A DNA stretch of 64,000 bases from Burkholderia seminalis DSM 23518. Lineage in GTDB: Bacteria; Pseudomonadota; Gammaproteobacteria; Burkholderiales; Burkholderiaceae. Under the pieces are notes generated by a model. That model worked only from the letters and a program-made list of their open reading frames with translations. It was not told the origin of the DNA and searched no databases. Positions 4,802-18,225 of this stretch are shown in pieces. The position numbers were made by a program, and so were the translations under genes. The first letter of the stretch is position 1. The number at the start of each line of letters is the position of its first letter. The DNA lies in NCBI RefSeq assembly GCF_902832885.1, contig NZ_CADFDK010000004.1, forward strand, positions 529,655 through 593,654. The letters are read 5' to 3'.

Positions 4802-5590
4802 TCACTGATCGAGACACCGCACGCACAGCCGCTTCGTCTGGCTCGCCGACAAGCCGTGGCACATCATCACGACCGGGCGCGCATGGCACGACGGCGGGTC
4901 GGCGGAGGCAGCCGGCAACGGCAGCCTGCGCGCGCGATCGGGCGGCGTGGTCGCGGCCGCGTCCATGCGTCGCTGCCGCGCCGGCGGCGGCACGTCACGC
5001 ACCACCGGGATCGGTTCGACGCCGCCTTCGCGCGCGTTGCGCTGCGCGCTCGCGACGACGCGGCTCACGTAGCCGCTCGAGAAGCCGGTCGTGAAGTTGC
5101 CGCTGTAGTAGCACGACAGCGCCGCGCGCAGTGCGGCCTGCGTGGCGCGGCCGGTGCCCGACGAGCGCGCGAAGCATTCGGTCAGGATCGCGCCGCCGGC
5201 CTGCAGGTTGCGGCATGGCTCGAACATCGTCGTTTCGTCGAGCCCGTATTTCGCGAAGTTGCGCGCGTTCACCTGCGCGAGGCCGACGCTGTAGCTGTAA
5301 CCGCGCGACGACAGTTCGCGCGCGGTCGCGCGCGCTTCGTCGAGCGACGCGGGCTGGCGCGTCAGGTGGCCGCCGACCACGCCGATCGCATACGGATTGA
5401 AGCCCGACTCGGTGCGCACCAGCGCGGCGAGCGTGTCGGGATCGACGTTCGGCGCGCAGGCGCGCGCGAGTCGAGCGAAACCCGCGGCGGCGCCGGCCGC
5501 CCGCGCGTCACGCGGCTGCAGGCCCGCCAGCGCGAGCACGGCCAGCGCGCACAGGCACGCCGCCGCGATTCGCAGGCCGCGCGCGTTCAT
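4802..5590 (-). CDS. VirB1-like lytic transglycosylase of the T3SS locus
   Basis: 262 aa with an N-terminal signal segment (about 1-32, Ala/Leu-rich). A soluble lytic transglycosylase domain follows: catalytic Glu61 in TESGFNPYAIG, then GLAQVN near 107, and CYYSGNF near 160, the usual order in VirB1/SLT family enzymes. It would cleave the peptidoglycan glycan strand in the periplasm so that the secretion apparatus can cross the wall. The start ATG at 5590 overlaps the sctR stop as ATGA, so the two are translationally coupled. The C-terminal 60 residues are basic and Pro-rich with extra cysteines. Function in the T3SS is inferred from position; the enzyme family is clear. Confidence 0.85.
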   Translation of the reverse strand: MNARGLRIAAACLCALAVLALAGLQPRDARAAGAAAGFARLARACAPNVDPDTLAALVRTESGFNPYAIGVVGGHLTRQPASLDEARATARELSSRGYSYSVGLAQVNARNFAKYGLDETTMFEPCRNLQAGGAILTECFARSSGTGRATQAALRAALSCYYSGNFTTGFSSGYVSRVVASAQRNAREGGVEPIPVVRDVPPPARQRRMDAAATTPPDRARRLPLPAASADPPSCHARPVVMMCHGLSASQTKRLCVRCLDQ

Positions 5591-6261
5591 CCCGCACCCG
5601 CCACGCGGTACGACATCACGAGCCCGTGCACGAGCAGCGACCAGCCGTCGAGCGCGACGAACAGCAGCAGCTTGAACGGCACCGAGATCGTCGTCGGCGA
5701 GATCATCTGCATCCCGAGCGCGAGCAGGATGTTCGCGACCAGCAGGTCGACGACGATGAACACGATGTAGATCACGAAACCGATCTGGAACGCCTTCGTC
5801 AGCTCGGCGAGCGTGAAGCTCGGCACCAGCACGAGCAGGTCGTCGTCCTTGATGCCGTCGGCGCGGTGCTTCGGCCAGACCGACGTCGCGGTGCGCACGA
5901 AGAACTCGCGGTCGCGCTGCCGCGTGTGCGACACGAGGAATTCCTTGATCGGCGGCAGCGCGGCATCGGCGAGCGCGCCGACGTCGGCCGTCGACAGCTG
6001 TCCCGACGCGTCGAAGTGGCGCGCCTGCAGCGCATCGCGGATCGACATTCCGACGGGCGCCATGATGAACAGCGACAGGATCAGCGCGATGCCGTTCAGC
6101 ACGAGGTTCGGCGGCACCTGCTGGATGCCGAGCGCGGAGCGCAGCAGGCCGAGCACGACCACGAGCTTCGTGTAGCTCGTCACCATCAGCGCCGCGAACG
6201 GCGCGATGCCGAGCGCGGCGATCACCGCGATCAGCGCGACCGGGTTCGGCAGGTTGCCCAT
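5587..6261 (-). CDS. sctR: Type III secretion export-gate protein SctR (YscR/FliP family)
   Basis: 224 aa, the usual size for SctR. The N-terminus has the family block with TSYTKLVVVLGLLRSALG, then PPNLVLNGIALILSLFIM, a central hydrophilic loop, and two C-terminal membrane segments containing VVDLLVANILLALGMQMISP. SctR pentamers form the core of the inner-membrane export gate with SctS and SctT. The gene starts 3 nt after the sctQ stop and its own stop overlaps the transglycosylase start. In most T3SS loci sctR is followed by sctS and sctT; here a transglycosylase follows, so the remaining export genes must lie elsewhere. Confidence 0.95.
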   Translation of the reverse strand: MGNLPNPVALIAVIAALGIAPFAALMVTSYTKLVVVLGLLRSALGIQQVPPNLVLNGIALILSLFIMAPVGMSIRDALQARHFDASGQLSTADVGALADAALPPIKEFLVSHTRQRDREFFVRTATSVWPKHRADGIKDDDLLVLVPSFTLAELTKAFQIGFVIYIVFIVVDLLVANILLALGMQMISPTTISVPFKLLLFVALDGWSLLVHGLVMSYRVAGAG

Positions 6262-6264
6262 CGT

Positions 6265-7365
6265 TCAGCGCTCGCGCGGCGCGGGTTGCGTCAGCGTGAC
6301 GACGCGCACGCCGAGTTTCTGGCCGACCGCGATCAGGTGGCCGGTGCCGATCAGCATCCCGTTCGCGACGAGATGGATCACGCTCTGGTTGATCCCTTGC
6401 TGCAGTTCGATCACGGCGCCCGGCTGCAGCGTGCTCAGCTCGCCGAGCGGCATCGACGCGGGCGGCAGCTCGAAGCGCAGGTCGACCGCGAGGCCGTCGA
6501 GCGTGCGCGGCGCATCGGCGGATGGCGCATCGTGTGTCGTGACGGGCGCGTGGTCGGTGCGGGTCGGTTCCAAAGGCATCTCCCTGATTCGTTCGACGGT
6601 CAGCCGGTTGCCCGACGGCCGTCCGGTGATTTCCCACGCCGGCGCGGCCGCCAGCCGCGCGACGCACAGCAGGTTCTGCTCGTGCGCCTGCCAGCGTTCG
6701 ATCGCGATGATGTCGCCGCCGACGACGTCGGCCAGTTCGGCCGTCGTCAGCTCGGTGCGGCCGATCTCGAACACGAGCGGCACGGGCAGGTTCGCGTAGG
6801 CCGCGCGCGCATCGGCGAGCGCGGCCGGCGCGGTCGCGAAGAACACGGCCAGTGCATCCGGCACGTCGAACAGCAGCGCGCCATGGCAACGCCACGCGGC
6901 ATCGGCGCGCCGCAGCTCGAAGCGCAGCGCGGCCGGCGCCGCACGCCAGGCCGGCACGCTCTCGGGCGGCGGCAGCAGCTCCACGCGCTGCCGCGTCGCG
7001 GCCTGCAGCACGGCCGCGAGCGGCGCGCCAAGGTCGGCGAGCAGCGCCGCGCGGATCACGGCCGGCACGGCCGGATCGGCTGCGTCGCCGAGCCATTCCG
7101 TTTCCGCGACCGGATCGATCCACAGCGTGCCGGTGGCCGGGCCGATGACGAAGCGGTACGCGTGCGCATCGGCGGCCGGCTCCGCGTCGACGCGCCAGCG
7201 CACCTCGTACGCGTGCTCGCCGAGCGTGACCGGGACGGCGCCCGTCGCGCCGTACGCGTGCGACAGCCCGCGCGCGGCGGCGGCGGACAGGCGCGGCAGG
7301 TACGGCGACGCGTCGAGCGCGACCGCCGCCGGCGCAGCGGCGGGGGGCGCGGAAGCGGCGGGCAT
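6265..7365 (-). CDS. sctQ: Type III secretion cytoplasmic-ring protein SctQ (YscQ/FliN-type SPOA)
   Basis: 366 aa from the ATG at 7365 (MPAASAPPAAAP). A GTG at 7419 is in frame, and the frame stays open up to 7632, so the start is uncertain; no strong ribosome-binding site is visible. The C-terminus carries a SPOA/FliN-like domain (motif GAVIELQQGINQSVIHLVAN, then GTGHLIAVGQKLGVRV). The Ala-rich N-terminal part is divergent, as usual in this family. SctQ forms the cytoplasmic sorting platform that receives substrates for the export gate. It is the first gene of the block sctQ-sctR-transglycosylase-giant protein. Confidence 0.88.
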   Translation of the reverse strand: MPAASAPPAAAPAAVALDASPYLPRLSAAAARGLSHAYGATGAVPVTLGEHAYEVRWRVDAEPAADAHAYRFVIGPATGTLWIDPVAETEWLGDAADPAVPAVIRAALLADLGAPLAAVLQAATRQRVELLPPPESVPAWRAAPAALRFELRRADAAWRCHGALLFDVPDALAVFFATAPAALADARAAYANLPVPLVFEIGRTELTTAELADVVGGDIIAIERWQAHEQNLLCVARLAAAPAWEITGRPSGNRLTVERIREMPLEPTRTDHAPVTTHDAPSADAPRTLDGLAVDLRFELPPASMPLGELSTLQPGAVIELQQGINQSVIHLVANGMLIGTGHLIAVGQKLGVRVVTLTQPAPRER

Positions 7366-7620
7366 CGCCCGGCTCGCGGCGTCGCCGGCGTCGGCATTCG
7401 TCAGGAACTGCGCAGGCACGGCGGGATCGGGGCGGATTCGGCGTTGATTCGACGGGTTGTTCCGGGGCCGGCGGCGCCGTCGGGCGCGCGGCTGCTGCGT
7501 CGATTGTAGGGACGGCCATGGCCGCGTGCCGGGCCGGAATCCGTAGTCGCACGCATCGTGCGGCGATCGAGCTAGCGGGGTGCTACGAAGCGTGATGAAG
7601 CCGGGCAGGCGGCGGCCGGC

Positions 7621-7653
7621 GCCCAAAAGCAACCGCCGCCCGGAGGCGGCGGT
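7621..7653 (-). terminator. Rho-independent terminator after the winged-helix regulator
   Basis: A perfect 9-bp inverted repeat (ACCGCCGCC at 7632-7640 and GGCGGCGGT at 7645-7653) has a 4-nt loop. Read on the minus strand it is followed by TTGCTTTTGG. It would stop transcripts of the regulator gene that ends at 7792, so sctQ must have its own promoter between about 7366 and 7620. Confidence 0.75.
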
Positions 7654-7791
7654 CGGGTCGCGACTGGCTGGCGGGCCGGAGGGCGTGCAGGCCGGATCCG
7701 GCTGGCAGGCCGCGAGGCGCTGCGGCTGGGCGCAGCGCGGTGGGGGGGACGTGGCCGCTGCGCCGCGAGCAGGCGGCGCGCGGGGGCAGCG

Positions 7792-8190
7792 TCACGCGTA
7801 GTCGGCGGCCATCGCCGGTTGCGGCGCGGCACGCAGGACCGGCGCGGCATCGTGGCGCTCGACGTGCGTCATGGCCGCACCGAACAGCACCAGGCGATAG
7901 CCGACCGCGTAGATCGGGATGATCCGCAGGTTCTTGTCGTGTTCGAGCTGCAGCTTCGAACGGATCCGCGAGATATGGGTGTCGAGCGTGCGCGACGACA
8001 CGCCGAGCTCGCGGCCCCACACGGCTTCCTGGATTGCCTGCCGCGGCACGATCTTGTTCATGTTGTCGAGCAGGAATTCGACGACGTCGAATTCGCGCGG
8101 CGTCACGTCAACGACCTTGTTGTCGATTTCGATCGTGCGGCGCACGAAGTTGATTTTTATGTTGTCGATGTACAGGTATTTGCAATCCAT
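7792..8190 (-). CDS. Stand-alone winged-helix (OmpR/PhoB-type) regulator without receiver
   Basis: 132 aa from the ATG at 8190, preceded by a GAGGG ribosome-binding site. The whole protein is one OmpR/PhoB C-terminal DNA-binding domain: VTPREFDVVEFLLDN (about 33-47), recognition region SSRTLDTHISRIRSKL and the wing IYAVGYRLV. There is no phosphoacceptor domain and no membrane segment. Such short regulators are known to control secretion loci in other bacteria (HilA-like DNA-binding domains), and its position beside sctQ suggests the same here. That role is inferred. A terminator follows, and three GTTACG motifs lie upstream. Confidence 0.85.
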   Translation of the reverse strand: MDCKYLYIDNIKINFVRRTIEIDNKVVDVTPREFDVVEFLLDNMNKIVPRQAIQEAVWGRELGVSSRTLDTHISRIRSKLQLEHDKNLRIIPIYAVGYRLVLFGAAMTHVERHDAAPVLRAAPQPAMAADYA

Positions 8191-14317: not shown

Positions 14318-14338
14318 AATCCTTATTTTTTAAGGATT
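14318..14338 (+). promoter_or_regulatory. AT-rich hairpin upstream of the secreted-protein cluster
   Basis: The perfect arms AATCCTTA (14318-14325) and TAAGGATT (14331-14338) are separated by five T residues, 72 nt before the first gene. It lies at the edge of the AT-rich island. It could be an operator or an mRNA leader hairpin. The following sequence has no T-run, so it is not a standard terminator. Confidence 0.4.
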
Positions 14339-14409
14339 GCTCGAGGCAGGAAGGTTGATGGCGTGCAGTCTTCCTTGCTCATTCTCTCCACGCCGTTATG
14401 GAGTCGACC

Positions 14410-14733
14410 ATGAAGAAGCTTCTGATTGCAGCAGCAGTTCTGGCGGTTTCGGGTGCAGCGTTTGCAGGCAGCGGCACGGTGTCGAGCAGCAATTCGACGA
14501 GCGGTGGCCAGACGATGGCCGGAGTTGCCGGGTTCGGCCACTTCTCCGCGACCGATTCGGGCGCAGCACTCGGTGCCGCCGGTGCACTTGCCGGTGGCCC
14601 GGGCAGCGCTTCGGTCTCGTACACGAGCCACACGCAAACGTCGACGGTCGGCGGCTTCGGCTTCGGCGGCGCACAGGCTGGCGGCAGCAGCGGTGCGAAT
14701 GCCGGCTCGACTGGCTGGACGTATCACCACTAA
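14410..14733 (+). CDS. Small secreted Gly/Ser-rich protein, first gene of the matrix/fibre-like cluster
   Basis: 107 aa from the ATG at 14410, with GGAG eight bases upstream. A clear signal peptide (MKKLLIAAAVLAVSGAAFA, cleavage near 19) precedes a mature protein of Gly, Ala, Ser, Thr and few charged residues (VSSSNSTSGGQTMAGVAGFG, then GGFGFGGAQAGGSSGANAG) with an aromatic end, GWTYHH. There are no cysteines. The composition resembles extracellular fibre or amyloid subunits, but no curlin or Fap repeat is recognisable. It is followed by four more secreted proteins on the same strand. Function unknown; a structural matrix role is my inference from composition and context. Confidence 0.8.
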   Translation: MKKLLIAAAVLAVSGAAFAGSGTVSSSNSTSGGQTMAGVAGFGHFSATDSGAALGAAGALAGGPGSASVSYTSHTQTSTVGGFGFGGAQAGGSSGANAGSTGWTYHH

Positions 14734-14844
14734 GCCGCGGCGCGTAGCGTTCGTCATTGGCTGGCGGTACGGATGCCGGGCTTCGCCCCATCAGGGCGGG
14801 CCTGGCTCCGCCACCGCCGAACTTCCTCACAGCAAGGAATTGCT

Positions 14845-15435
14845 ATGAAAGCCAAAGTCATATTAGCGACAGCGCTCACCGTCCTATCGTCGGCCGCATT
14901 GGCAGCAGGTTCGTTCACGAACAACCAGACGCAATCCGTCGCAGCGGGTGTGTCCGGTTCGGTACTGGTCGGATCCGGCAGCTATACGAGCAATTCGACA
15001 TCGACGGCTGGTGCAAGCGCCGGCAGTACCGTGACACCCGCTGGTTCCGTCGGCACGGCGTCCGCCAATCACAACTCGACTTCGACGGCCAGCGGTTCGG
15101 GCATGAACGGAGGCGCGTTCGCGGCAGGCGGCGGTATCGGTGCTGCAGGCTCGTTCGGTGGAAACAGCAAAACGAACGAGAACGCGAATGCGCTGTCGGG
15201 AGGGGTGACCGCCACGATCGTACTCGGCGCGAACCACTACACGGCCACGGGTGCGAACGACAACGGCAACGCCAACGCGGGTGCCGCCGGGCTGACGGGC
15301 AGTGGTGGGTCCGCTGCGATCACGGGTTCGACTCACTACAACTCGTCGACCGCGTGGAGTACCGGTCCGGCCGGTTCGCCGTCCGCATCGGGTGGAAGCC
15401 AGGGCAGTTCGAGCGCGACCGGGAGCAGTCATTAG
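14845..15435 (+). CDS. Secreted Ser/Gly/Thr/Asn-rich fibre-like protein
   Basis: 196 aa from the ATG at 14845, with AAGGAAT upstream. The signal peptide (MKAKVILATALTVLSSAALA, about 20 residues) is followed by a mature chain built almost only of Ser, Gly, Thr, Asn and Ala, with irregular SxTxG-type alternation (SGSVLVGSGSYTSNSTSTAG; NANAGAAGLTGSGGSAAITG). It has no cysteine and very few charges. Such chains form beta-rich surface fibres or matrix in several bacteria, though no named family is recognisable. It lies 111 nt after the first small secreted gene and shares its style, so the two may be co-assembling subunits. Confidence 0.8.
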   Translation: MKAKVILATALTVLSSAALAAGSFTNNQTQSVAAGVSGSVLVGSGSYTSNSTSTAGASAGSTVTPAGSVGTASANHNSTSTASGSGMNGGAFAAGGGIGAAGSFGGNSKTNENANALSGGVTATIVLGANHYTATGANDNGNANAGAAGLTGSGGSAAITGSTHYNSSTAWSTGPAGSPSASGGSQGSSSATGSSH

Positions 15436-15448
15436 TCAGGTGTGGGGG

Positions 15449-15482
15449 GGGACCAGTTTCCCAGCGACGCTGGTCTCTTTTC
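15449..15482 (+). terminator. Possible intra-operon terminator/attenuator
   Basis: GACCAG (15451-15456) pairs with CTGGTC (15470-15475) across a 13-nt loop, followed by TCTTTTCC. It begins 16 nt after the stop of the Ser/Gly-rich gene. It could reduce read-through so that the first two genes are made in excess, as is common for fibre subunits. The hairpin is short, so this is tentative. Confidence 0.35.
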
Positions 15483-15509
15483 CGCATTGTTGTCACGTAA
15501 GGAGTTGGC

Positions 15510-15791
15510 ATGAAGCAGAACCTGATTGCCGCCGCTCTGATGCTCGCGTCTCTGACGGCGTATGGCGCTGACCGTGCTGCCGATGGTGGGCAATCGACTA
15601 TGCAGACGTCAAACAATCCTGACCAGACAACCAAACCGTCAGAACAACAAACGCTTTCGTCGGGCAGTGCCATCGGCGGACCGGATGCCCAGCAGTGGCA
15701 GGGCGTGTCGGCCGGCTCGTGGTCCCAGCTGGGCAGCGGCTGGAAGCAGTTCGGGGAAGCAGCGAAAACTGAAGGCATTCAGGGGAATTAG
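15510..15791 (+). CDS. Small secreted protein of the matrix/fibre-like cluster
   Basis: 93 aa from the ATG at 15510, with AAGGAG upstream. A signal peptide of about 19 residues (MKQNLIAAALMLASLTAYG) is followed by a polar Gln/Ser/Asn/Thr-rich segment and a C-terminal part with three Trp residues (QQWQGVSAGSWSQLGSGWKQ) that could form an amphipathic helix. I recognise no family. Its position between the Ser/Gly-rich subunits and the large Ala/Pro-rich protein suggests a minor component or assembly factor of the same structure. Confidence 0.75.
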   Translation: MKQNLIAAALMLASLTAYGADRAADGGQSTMQTSNNPDQTTKPSEQQTLSSGSAIGGPDAQQWQGVSAGSWSQLGSGWKQFGEAAKTEGIQGN

Positions 15792-15835
15792 TACGGTTGC
15801 CTGGGTCGGAGGTCAAACCTCGTCCGGAGAGTGAA

Positions 15836-17485
15836 ATGAACAGCAACAGGATCAAGGTGGCATGCGCGGCGATGTTCGCGATGACCACGATCGGTGCCCA
15901 CGCGCAAACTGCCGACTCGACGTCGAGCGCGCAGTCCTCGACGTCGTCGACGGCCGTCAGCCAGGGTGGCGGTTCGAGCATGAACACGAACACCACGAGC
16001 TCGCGCGGCGGCAATGCCACCAGTTCCAGCGGGGTGCGCGGCAGCGGCAATTCGAGCGTGAACTTCAACGTGACGATGCCGTCCAGCACCAGCGGAGGCA
16101 CGAGCGTGACGCCGCAGTCGCTGCAGTCGTCGGGCGCGCCCGGCACCAACCCGTACAACACCCAGACTTCGGAAAACGTCAACTACTCCGGTACGCAGAC
16201 GATCAAGACCAACCCGGCGATCCAGGCGCCCGGCCTCACGACCACGCTGTCCGATACCTGCATGGGTTCGGTGAGCGTCGGTGTGTCGTTCCCGGGCTTC
16301 GGCGCGACGGGCGGCACGACGCTGGTCGACCAGGCCTGCGTCCGGCGTCTCGATGCGCGTGAATTCCGTGCGATGGGCCTGACCGACGTGGCGCTCGCGC
16401 TGCTGTGCCAGAGCGATGCGAACCGGCGCGCGGTGGAAGCGACCGGCCACCTGTGCCCGGGCACGACCGCGCCGCTCGCGCGTTCGAACGTGGCGCCGAG
16501 CGTGGAAGCGACCGTCGCGGACGACGTGAAGTATCGCGACCCGATCGTGCGCGACCGCATGGGCCTGCCGCCGCTCGGCTCGGCCGCGCCGGCATCCGCG
16601 CCGACGCGTCCGATCCAGACGACGTCGGTGCAGGCAGCGCCTGTTTCGGTGCCGGTTCCGATTCCGGTGCCGGCGGTCGCGCCGGTCGCCGCCGCCCCGG
16701 CCGTCGCCGCGCCGGCAGTCGCCGCGGCCACCCCGGCGGTCGCGTCGCCCGCTGTTGCCGCCGCGGCGCCGGCAGTGGCTGCACCGGCGGCAGCGGCGCC
16801 CGCGGTTGCTGCGGCACCTGCCGTCGCCGCCGCGCCTGCCGCCGCGGTCGTACCGGCAGCCGCGATGGCGGCCGTGCCGGCTGCGGCTGTCATCGCCGCG
16901 CCCGCGGTGGCTGACAAGGCATCGCAAGCGCCTGCCACGCCGGTCGCTGACACGAAGGCCGCCGAGCCCGCCCAGCCCGTGGCTGACACGAAGGCGCCGG
17001 AGCCCGCACAGCCCGTTGCCGACACGAAGGCCGCCGAGCCCGCCCAGCCGGTTGCCGACACGAAGGCGCCCGAACCCGTGCAGCCCGTCGCCGACAAGGC
17101 ACCGGAGCCGATGCCGGCCGCCACCGACAACGCAGCGCAGGCCGCAGGCGAACCGGTTGCCGAACCGATGCCGGCCGCTGCCGTCGTCACGGCGCCGGCA
17201 GCCGATGCAAAGGCTGCCGAGCCGGCGCCGCAAGCGACTGTCGAAGCGCCCGCTCCGCAAGCCGCGCTGCCTGAGGCAGCAGCGCCGGCCGACATGCCGA
17301 CTGCCGACGCGAAGGTGCCCGAAGCGGCCGAATCCGCTGCCGCACCGGCTGCGCCCGCCGCCGACATGCCGGCGTTGAGCGACCCGGCCCAGGCGTTGCC
17401 GCCGGCCACGGTCGACCAGCAGGCCGCACCGGCCGCACCGGTTGCGCCGGCGCCGGCCGTCATCTCGACGAGCACGTCGTCGTAA
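15836..17485 (+). CDS. Large secreted protein: Ser/Asn-rich head, four-Cys domain, Ala/Pro/Val-rich repeat tail
   Basis: 549 aa from the ATG at 15836, behind CGGAGAG. There is a signal peptide (about 1-24, ending AHA-QT) and a Ser/Thr/Gly/Asn-rich segment (25-130). A compact domain with four cysteines (about 135-215; SDTCMGSV, DQACVRRLDAREF, LLCQSD, HLCPG) probably forms two disulphides. The tail, about 330 residues of Ala/Pro/Val, includes four perfectly phased 12-aa units VADTKAxEPAQP. The layout suggests a folded anchor or tip domain on an extended stalk that spans the periplasm or cell surface. Family not recognised; the Cys motif with CxR and a later CP is conserved-looking. Confidence 0.8.
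   Translation: MNSNRIKVACAAMFAMTTIGAHAQTADSTSSAQSSTSSTAVSQGGGSSMNTNTTSSRGGNATSSSGVRGSGNSSVNFNVTMPSSTSGGTSVTPQSLQSSGAPGTNPYNTQTSENVNYSGTQTIKTNPAIQAPGLTTTLSDTCMGSVSVGVSFPGFGATGGTTLVDQACVRRLDAREFRAMGLTDVALALLCQSDANRRAVEATGHLCPGTTAPLARSNVAPSVEATVADDVKYRDPIVRDRMGLPPLGSAAPASAPTRPIQTTSVQAAPVSVPVPIPVPAVAPVAAAPAVAAPAVAAATPAVASPAVAAAAPAVAAPAAAAPAVAAAPAVAAAPAAAVVPAAAMAAVPAAAVIAAPAVADKASQAPATPVADTKAAEPAQPVADTKAPEPAQPVADTKAAEPAQPVADTKAPEPVQPVADKAPEPMPAATDNAAQAAGEPVAEPMPAAAVVTAPAADAKAAEPAPQATVEAPAPQAALPEAAAPADMPTADAKVPEAAESAAAPAAPAADMPALSDPAQALPPATVDQQAAPAAPVAPAPAVISTSTSS
16943..17107 (+). repeat. 36-bp in-frame tandem repeat in the Ala/Pro-rich tail
   Basis: Four complete units (16943-16978, 16979-17014, 17015-17050, 17051-17086) and a partial fifth encode VADTKA(A/P)EP(A/V)QP. 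The units differ at synonymous positions and alternate A and P at one residue, so the array is old enough to have diverged but could still change copy number by slippage or recombination. Confidence 0.85.
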
Positions 17486-17640
17486 GCACGCGGGGCCGTC
17501 TGCCGCGCGGCCGAATGCCGGTCGCCCGGCCGGCGCCCGGCCCCGATGCCCGATGGACGTTTCCGGTTGGACGGGTGTTGGTCCCATCCCCGAGATCAAC
17601 ACCTCTTTTTGCCTGACGAGGATGCAAGGAGGCCTCAATC

Positions 17641-18225
17641 ATGAGGATCTTTTTGGTCGCTTTGCTGCTGGTCAGCGTGCAAGCCGCTGCGCAGACGGTT
17701 TTCCAGAATCCCGCGGTGTTCGTGATCCTGAGCGAGCAGACCGCCGCGAATGCCGTGAGCGTTCAGCAGGCGCTGACGACGCTGGGCCGCGCCGACAACA
17801 CCGCATGCGCGCCGATGGTGATGATCGGCGATCCGCAGATGGTCTACATGATGCCGGAGCAAGGTCATGCGCCGTCGTGGAAGTCGCCGGTATACGGTCG
17901 CGGCGCACCGTTCGAAGCGCAGAACGGCCCGACGTCGACGGGCAAGACGGTCGGCGCGATGCAGCATGCCGAGGACATGCAGACGCAGCCGTGGAGCGAC
18001 GGCAGCGCGATCACGCAGAAGATCGCCGGCGAGTCGAGCGTGACGGCGGCGGACCGCGTGAGCGGGTGGCAGCACAGCGGGCTCGACAGGATCGAGACGG
18101 CCCGGGCCGAGGACGTGACGGTGAACGGCAAGACCTACCATGCCTATCGCGACGATCTCAACACGTCGGTGAAGCCGGCCATCGAGCCGCAGATCTACAC
18201 GCAGCGCGTCGTGTTCTGCCGATAA
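17641..18225 (+). CDS. Secreted protein closing the matrix/fibre-like cluster
   Basis: 194 aa from the ATG at 17641, with AAGGAGG upstream. A short signal peptide (MRIFLVALLLVSVQAAAQ) is followed by a soluble domain with normal residue composition (ALTTLGRADNTACAPMVMIG; GKTYHAYRDDLNTSVKPAIE) and a C-terminal VVFCR; its two cysteines may pair. Unlike the upstream genes it is not low-complexity, so it may be an assembly chaperone or a cap for the secreted structure. I recognise no family. The sigma-54 activator follows within 175 nt on the same strand. Confidence 0.75.
   Translation: MRIFLVALLLVSVQAAAQTVFQNPAVFVILSEQTAANAVSVQQALTTLGRADNTACAPMVMIGDPQMVYMMPEQGHAPSWKSPVYGRGAPFEAQNGPTSTGKTVGAMQHAEDMQTQPWSDGSAITQKIAGESSVTAADRVSGWQHSGLDRIETARAEDVTVNGKTYHAYRDDLNTSVKPAIEPQIYTQRVVFCR

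Follow-up and report, generated by a model that had tools for sequence, protein, structure and literature searches.

Curli and their type VIII secretion system (CsgA, CsgB, CsgG) comprise small, exported, repetitive polar proteins that are encoded together with a partner in one cluster and are tied to biofilm regulation; two reports also describe curli-type genes in pelagiphages (PMC9599517, PMC9004378). In Burkholderia cenocepacia, the Bep locus of polysaccharide enzymes is associated with BerB, which, according to PMC5552954, binds cyclic diguanosine monophosphate (c-di-GMP), works with RpoN, and lies in a setting of exopolysaccharide and CRP/FNR genes. Here we analyse a 64,000-nucleotide stretch of the Burkholderia seminalis DSM 23518 genome ("the window", to which all coordinates refer) that carries five genes for exported proteins, P0001 to P0005, followed by a regulator gene, P0006. 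We find that this five-gene set is real and has been kept together by evolution. By sequence comparison, the four-Cys domain of P0004 (hereafter B) extends beyond Burkholderia to Comamonadaceae, Novosphingobium, and phages, where, outside marine phages, it usually stands directly behind an exported protein rich in Ser, Gly, Thr, Asn, and Ala (hereafter A), and the occurrence of this core protein pair in other soil bacteria and in phages suggests an undescribed way to build or modify the bacterial surface. The module would belong with exported protein assemblies linked to biofilm-type regulation, among which curli are a different family, and we recognised no description of it in the open-licence PubMed Central literature.

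Five Exported Proteins Conserved within Burkholderia

The plus strand of the window holds five back-to-back open reading frames (ORFs) at 14410-18225, with P0006 next to them:

14410 to 14733, plus strand: P0001, A-type exported protein rich in Ser/Gly/Thr/Asn/Ala, 107 residues
14845 to 15435, plus strand: P0002, A-type exported protein, 196 residues, with two diverged internal repeats
15510 to 15791, plus strand: P0003, small polar exported protein with three Trp, 93 residues
15836 to 17485, plus strand: P0004, B-type, with a polar Ser/Asn/Gly-rich N terminus, a four-Cys domain at about residues 95-215, and an Ala/Pro/Val stalk
16939 to 17096, plus strand: 36-bp tandem repeats in the P0004 stalk, 4.4 copies (Tandem Repeats Finder)
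17641 to 18225, plus strand: P0005, compact exported protein with two Cys, 194 residues
18337 to 19758, plus strand: P0006, BerB-like sigma-54 activator with a VpsR domain, likely the regulator of the cluster

A sequence-only reading of this DNA had described five plus-strand genes with signal peptides, and the N termini of P0001 to P0005, all read by eye, do show a positive or polar beginning followed by a hydrophobic segment and a cleavage site of small residues. Its individual descriptions hold as well. The two proteins it called almost wholly Ser/Gly/Thr/Asn/Ala are P0001 and P0002, whose mature parts consist of these residues to 74% and 79%, whereas 53 mechanically picked ORFs of the window (a set that includes P0004 and P0005 and excludes P0001-P0003) have a median of 33% and reach at most 56%; the polar protein with three Trp is P0003, and the compact last protein is P0005. 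The protein said to carry a four-Cys domain on an Ala/Pro/Val stalk with 36-bp repeats is P0004, with Cys at positions 142, 168, 191, and 207 of the mature protein and a stalk of 287 residues that is 71% Ala/Pro/Val. What that reading had missed, in counting a cluster of five genes, were the adjoining regulator and the relatives beyond the genus. P0001 to P0005 score below the cut-off of every Pfam and NCBIfam model, and no relative of the P0004 core or of P0005 was found in the PDB.

We searched 61 genomes for P0005 and found matches in 26 of 37 from the same genus (one of them a fragment) and in none of the 24 others. Examination of 25 loci from other genomes by tblastn with all six proteins bears out the predicted conservation of gene order: P0001 to P0006 lie in order on one strand in 21 loci, with P0006 directly next to the five genes in each, although P0002 is split between frames in one of them (L051). 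The complete set is present on named replicons of B. cenocepacia CMCC(B)23006, B. multivorans 2023CK-01339, and B. arboris MEC_B345. Two divergent loci, L036 and L037, retain P0002 to P0005 and lack P0006; P0001 is present in L037 and has no intact reading frame in L036, where an apparent match to it coincides with P0002 and was discounted. Locus L041 ends at a contig edge, and L038 contains P0006 and only part of P0005; its match to P0002 (26%) was discounted as spurious. P0004 of L033 was detected by tblastn and missed by blastp. Among the 11 genomes without P0005 and one further genome (G004), only G032, a draft that is 82% complete, yielded the B domain. Orthologues of P0006 (83-84%) persist in two of these genomes, G011 and G015, and also in G004, so that regulator and cluster are not always inherited together.

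We compared the five genes of the window with those of six relatives, taking residues 1-262 as the P0004 core, and the ratio of nonsynonymous to synonymous substitution rates (dN/dS) was below 1 in all 30 comparisons (range 0.08-0.77). Values were 0.08-0.38 for P0001, P0002, the P0004 core, and P0005; P0003 is under the weakest purifying selection (0.25-0.77). These data bear on the view that P0001 to P0005 are simply weakly constrained exported proteins of low complexity that share no structure and lie together by accident. Composition alone can make low-complexity proteins look similar, the dN/dS of P0003 reaches 0.77, and P0005 has no match in 11 of 37 genomes of the genus. However, the preserved order in 21 of 25 loci, the low dN/dS of the four other genes, the high conservation of the B domain, and a rate of A-B pairing in distant taxa far above that of controls (below) all oppose this view, which is unlikely given the synteny and to which we assign very little weight.

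B Domains in Other Bacteria and in Phages

P0004 matches the phage family phrog_20531 over residues 27-247 (E = 1.9e-18); no function is recorded for this family, to which P0004 adds its long stalk. With the P0004 core as query, five phage records matched at E ≤ 1e-3 (three from Pelagibacter phages and two from environmental phages; best E = 2e-8) and ten in all at E ≤ 1, including weak matches to Agrobacterium phage JP1 (E = 0.04) and a Roseobacter phage (E = 1). A phage B protein as query retrieved seven records at E ≤ 1e-3, including Achromobacter phages JWAlpha and JWDelta, and a pelagiphage B query matched 93 viral contigs, of which 80 were kept. The four-Cys region of P0004, which follows a leader read by eye, was found beyond Burkholderia in two Novosphingobium humi replicons and one Variovorax replicon. 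The literal Burkholderia B-domain query gave no viral relative. A two-row B query identified 33 loci on genome contigs of Variovorax, Comamonas, Xenophilus, Polaromonas, and Ramlibacter, all Comamonadaceae, together with 16 viral loci. Comamonas testosteroni ATCC 11996 has three B copies on three contigs (L094, L095, and L096), each preceded by an A-type ORF.

We then counted A by rule, not by homology, as an ORF of at least 100 residues with at least 58% Ser/Gly/Thr/Asn/Ala that ends near the start of B. A few loci without a script-found B frame were left out (3/33 Comamonadaceae, 1/16 viral, and 4/80 marine), and mechanically chosen ORF starts hide A in some others, such as L079, which was scored without A yet has one. 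Among the loci with B, an A directly precedes it in Comamonadaceae (27 of 30), in the viral set from the two-row query (13 of 15), and in other loci (5 of 6); a third protein, C, was found in 27/30, 14/15, and 1/6, respectively. Applied to the other ORFs of these loci, the A rule is satisfied by 3 of 363 in Comamonadaceae and 0 of 23 in viral loci. L125-L130, which make up six of the 15 viral loci, are not independent of Comamonas loci, with which they have 80-95% of their aligned DNA in common; they are probably predicted proviruses. Without these six, A is present in 7 of 9 viral loci and C in 8 of 9. In the marine phage loci (L141-L220), B was found in 76 of 80 and neither A nor C in any of these 76, so that B may have a separate role in such phages.

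The Comamonadaceae module resembles the Burkholderia cluster in having a Ser/Gly/Thr/Asn/Ala-rich exported protein just before B. In the window, P0001 and P0002 lie upstream of P0004 with P0003 in between, and no homology of P0001 or P0002 to the Comamonas A family was found at the sequence level. The Comamonadaceae C is unrelated to P0005, the exported protein downstream of B in the window (hhalign probability 0.1). In the three Comamonadaceae loci scanned (L074, L089, and L103), the module has as divergent neighbours a histidine kinase and a NarL-type response regulator instead of a VpsR-type activator.

We read the ORFs of nine viral loci and scanned ten proteins from three of them with Pfam. 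Two of these loci carry genes for a GT2 glycosyltransferase and a polysaccharide deacetylase near A-B-C (L132:94-6718 and L134:1300-6255), L132 also carrying GH16 and lysozyme genes; the two gene sets are possibly phage-borne sets for a coat of polysaccharide and protein. In L131, the gene after A-B-C has a weak match to YkuD, an L,D-transpeptidase family (E = 6e-4, under the Pfam cut-off), and relatives of this gene occur in 5 of 15 viral loci and in the Polaromonas locus. In L119, from a genome of the order (reverse complement, 5903-8151), an A-B pair adjoins an ORF that by eye resembles a reverse transcriptase, and phage-like genes occur in the vicinity.

The distribution of B raises the question of whether the genes are at root a phage-derived set acting on the host surface, for superinfection exclusion or for holding infected cells together, with domesticated copies in Burkholderia and Comamonadaceae. 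The matches of both the P0004 core and phage B queries to phage records, the number of viral contigs retrieved with the pelagiphage query, the A-B-C sets in contigs with phage-like genes, and the curli-type genes described for pelagiphages in PMC9599517 are all in keeping with such an origin. The Burkholderia cluster, however, keeps its gene order and its own regulator genus-wide, and the literal domain query from Burkholderia reaches no virus; we consider a phage origin of this kind improbable.

A BerB-like Regulator and Candidate Upstream Elements

P0006 combines an N-terminal VpsR domain (Pfam E = 4.6e-18; 65.5 bits, cut-off 23.7), a sigma-54 AAA+ domain (Sigma54_activat; E = 2.8e-71, 239 bits), and a Fis-type helix-turn-helix (HTH_8; 31.8 bits). 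It contains at residue 246 the GAFTGA motif, through which activators of this type contact sigma-54. The genome carries four VpsR-domain genes, and P0006 is 56-57% identical to the other three, one of which (L060) adjoins exopolysaccharide and CRP/FNR genes, as read by eye; equating L060 with BerB relies on this gene context and not on the published BerB sequence. P0006 thus shares the VpsR and sigma-54 architecture of BerB and is 56% identical to the paralogue in the Bep-like setting, but the Bep locus encodes polysaccharide enzymes where this cluster encodes exported proteins, and P0006 is a separate gene.

Two elements precede P0001, both with putative functions:

14319 to 14341, plus strand: inverted repeat ATCCTTA..TAAGGAT plus TTGCT, candidate activator site
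14349 to 14362, plus strand: GG-N10-GC element, candidate sigma-54 promoter (-24/-12)

The form GG-N10-GCGTGC is present upstream of P0001 in 23 of 23 sequences, although the sequence otherwise fits the sigma-54 consensus poorly and scanning with a stricter consensus gave nothing. A relaxed pattern of the inverted repeat occurs in 17 of the 23 sequences, the other six diverging in a half-site or the loop, and the exact pattern of the window occurs once genome-wide. Elsewhere, at G007:C11:362868-372284 and at comparable sites in G009, G010, G019, and G025, VpsR-type activators occur in pairs separated by a few kilobases, one member 66-67% and the other 58-59% identical to P0006; the cluster was not found in these five genomes.

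A Possible Surface Assembly or Periplasmic Layer

The sequence-only reading recognised no motif of a known fibre system and no obvious secretion pore, and our searches agree for the families they covered. No Pfam or NCBIfam match to a fibre family exceeds its cut-off, and no curlin family is among the Pfam matches to P0001-P0005 at E ≤ 1. CsgG has no match in the genome by a search that was positive in E. coli and three others of 14 control genomes. Fap families have no Pfam or NCBIfam match among the cluster proteins (FapF was not searched for in the genome), and neither chaperone nor usher is matched by any of P0001-P0006, the six proteins to which this search was confined. The only fimbrial trace is a match of P0003 residues 1-27, its signal peptide, to a fimbrial subunit model at E = 0.036 (13.8 bits, cut-off 203). 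The likeness to curli in composition, clustering, regulation, and phage carriage stands beside clear differences, namely no curlin match, a genome without CsgG, and a B protein that is an unrelated four-Cys domain.

We tentatively favour the explanation that P0001 to P0006 form a regulated surface, envelope, or biofilm-matrix assembly in which A-type proteins act with B as partner or anchor, and give it somewhat less than an even chance. P0001 and P0002 would be exported to the periplasm and then, by a general route (type II secretion, for instance), to the cell surface or matrix, where they may act as beta-rich, repetitive building blocks of a polymer. Through its four-Cys domain, P0004 could bind, nucleate, or cap the A polymer while the Ala/Pro/Val stalk keeps it off the envelope, with P0003 and P0005 as putative accessory parts; P0006 would activate the genes as a single transcript via sigma-54, probably in response to c-di-GMP. 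The extracellular structure suggested by the sequence-only reading is in part upheld: the synteny, the lack of a known fibre family, the CsgG-less genome, and the adjoining biofilm-type regulator fit it, as does a Comamonas A-type protein that is predicted to be all-beta (mean predicted local distance difference test score, pLDDT, 73).

Other observations weigh against this explanation. The beta-rich fold that had been expected is predicted for an A protein from Comamonas, not for one from Burkholderia, and the model of the P0004 core is unusable (pLDDT 44.5), with helices as its only predicted elements. On a Novosphingobium humi plasmid (L061:7110-8789), the gene immediately downstream of a Ser/Gly-rich exported ORF encodes a fusion of B with an OmpA domain (E = 1.5e-17), which would put this B protein in the periplasm. 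A serious rival, which we consider possible while doubting it, is a periplasmic or peptidoglycan-bound layer in place of an extracellular matrix, in which B would bind the cell wall and A would fill or stiffen the periplasm. The OmpA fusion, the sub-cut-off YkuD match beside A-B-C and its relatives elsewhere, and the missing CsgG pore favour a role in the periplasm or cell wall, and the phage lysozyme close by in L132 is consistent with it. On the other side, two observations point to a matrix, namely the BerB-like activator next to the cluster and the polysaccharide genes near A-B-C in the viral contigs, and the OmpA fusion is known from one B protein among the few scanned by Pfam.

Extending the surface-assembly explanation to other taxa, these genes may constitute a previously undescribed, phage-portable module for building surfaces, with A as a beta-rich low-complexity polymer, B as its four-Cys partner or anchor, and, in Comamonadaceae and some non-marine-type phages, C as a small additional member. 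Some phages would pair it with polysaccharide-synthesis genes and thereby alter the coat of infected hosts, and Burkholderia would have expanded the set to five genes controlled by a sigma-54 activator of the c-di-GMP type; we put forward these three statements jointly as a conjecture that is rather doubtful as a whole. If surface assembly is correct, the B domain provides a sequence handle on envelope or matrix proteins of a class that has gone unrecognised and is shared by Burkholderia, Comamonadaceae, a Novosphingobium, and bacteriophages, the uncharacterised BerB-like regulator P0006 gains a target, and phage-borne host-surface genes reach beyond curli. Separately, the minus strand of the window contains at 5587-6261 an ORF that by eye resembles an export apparatus protein of the SctR/FliP type.

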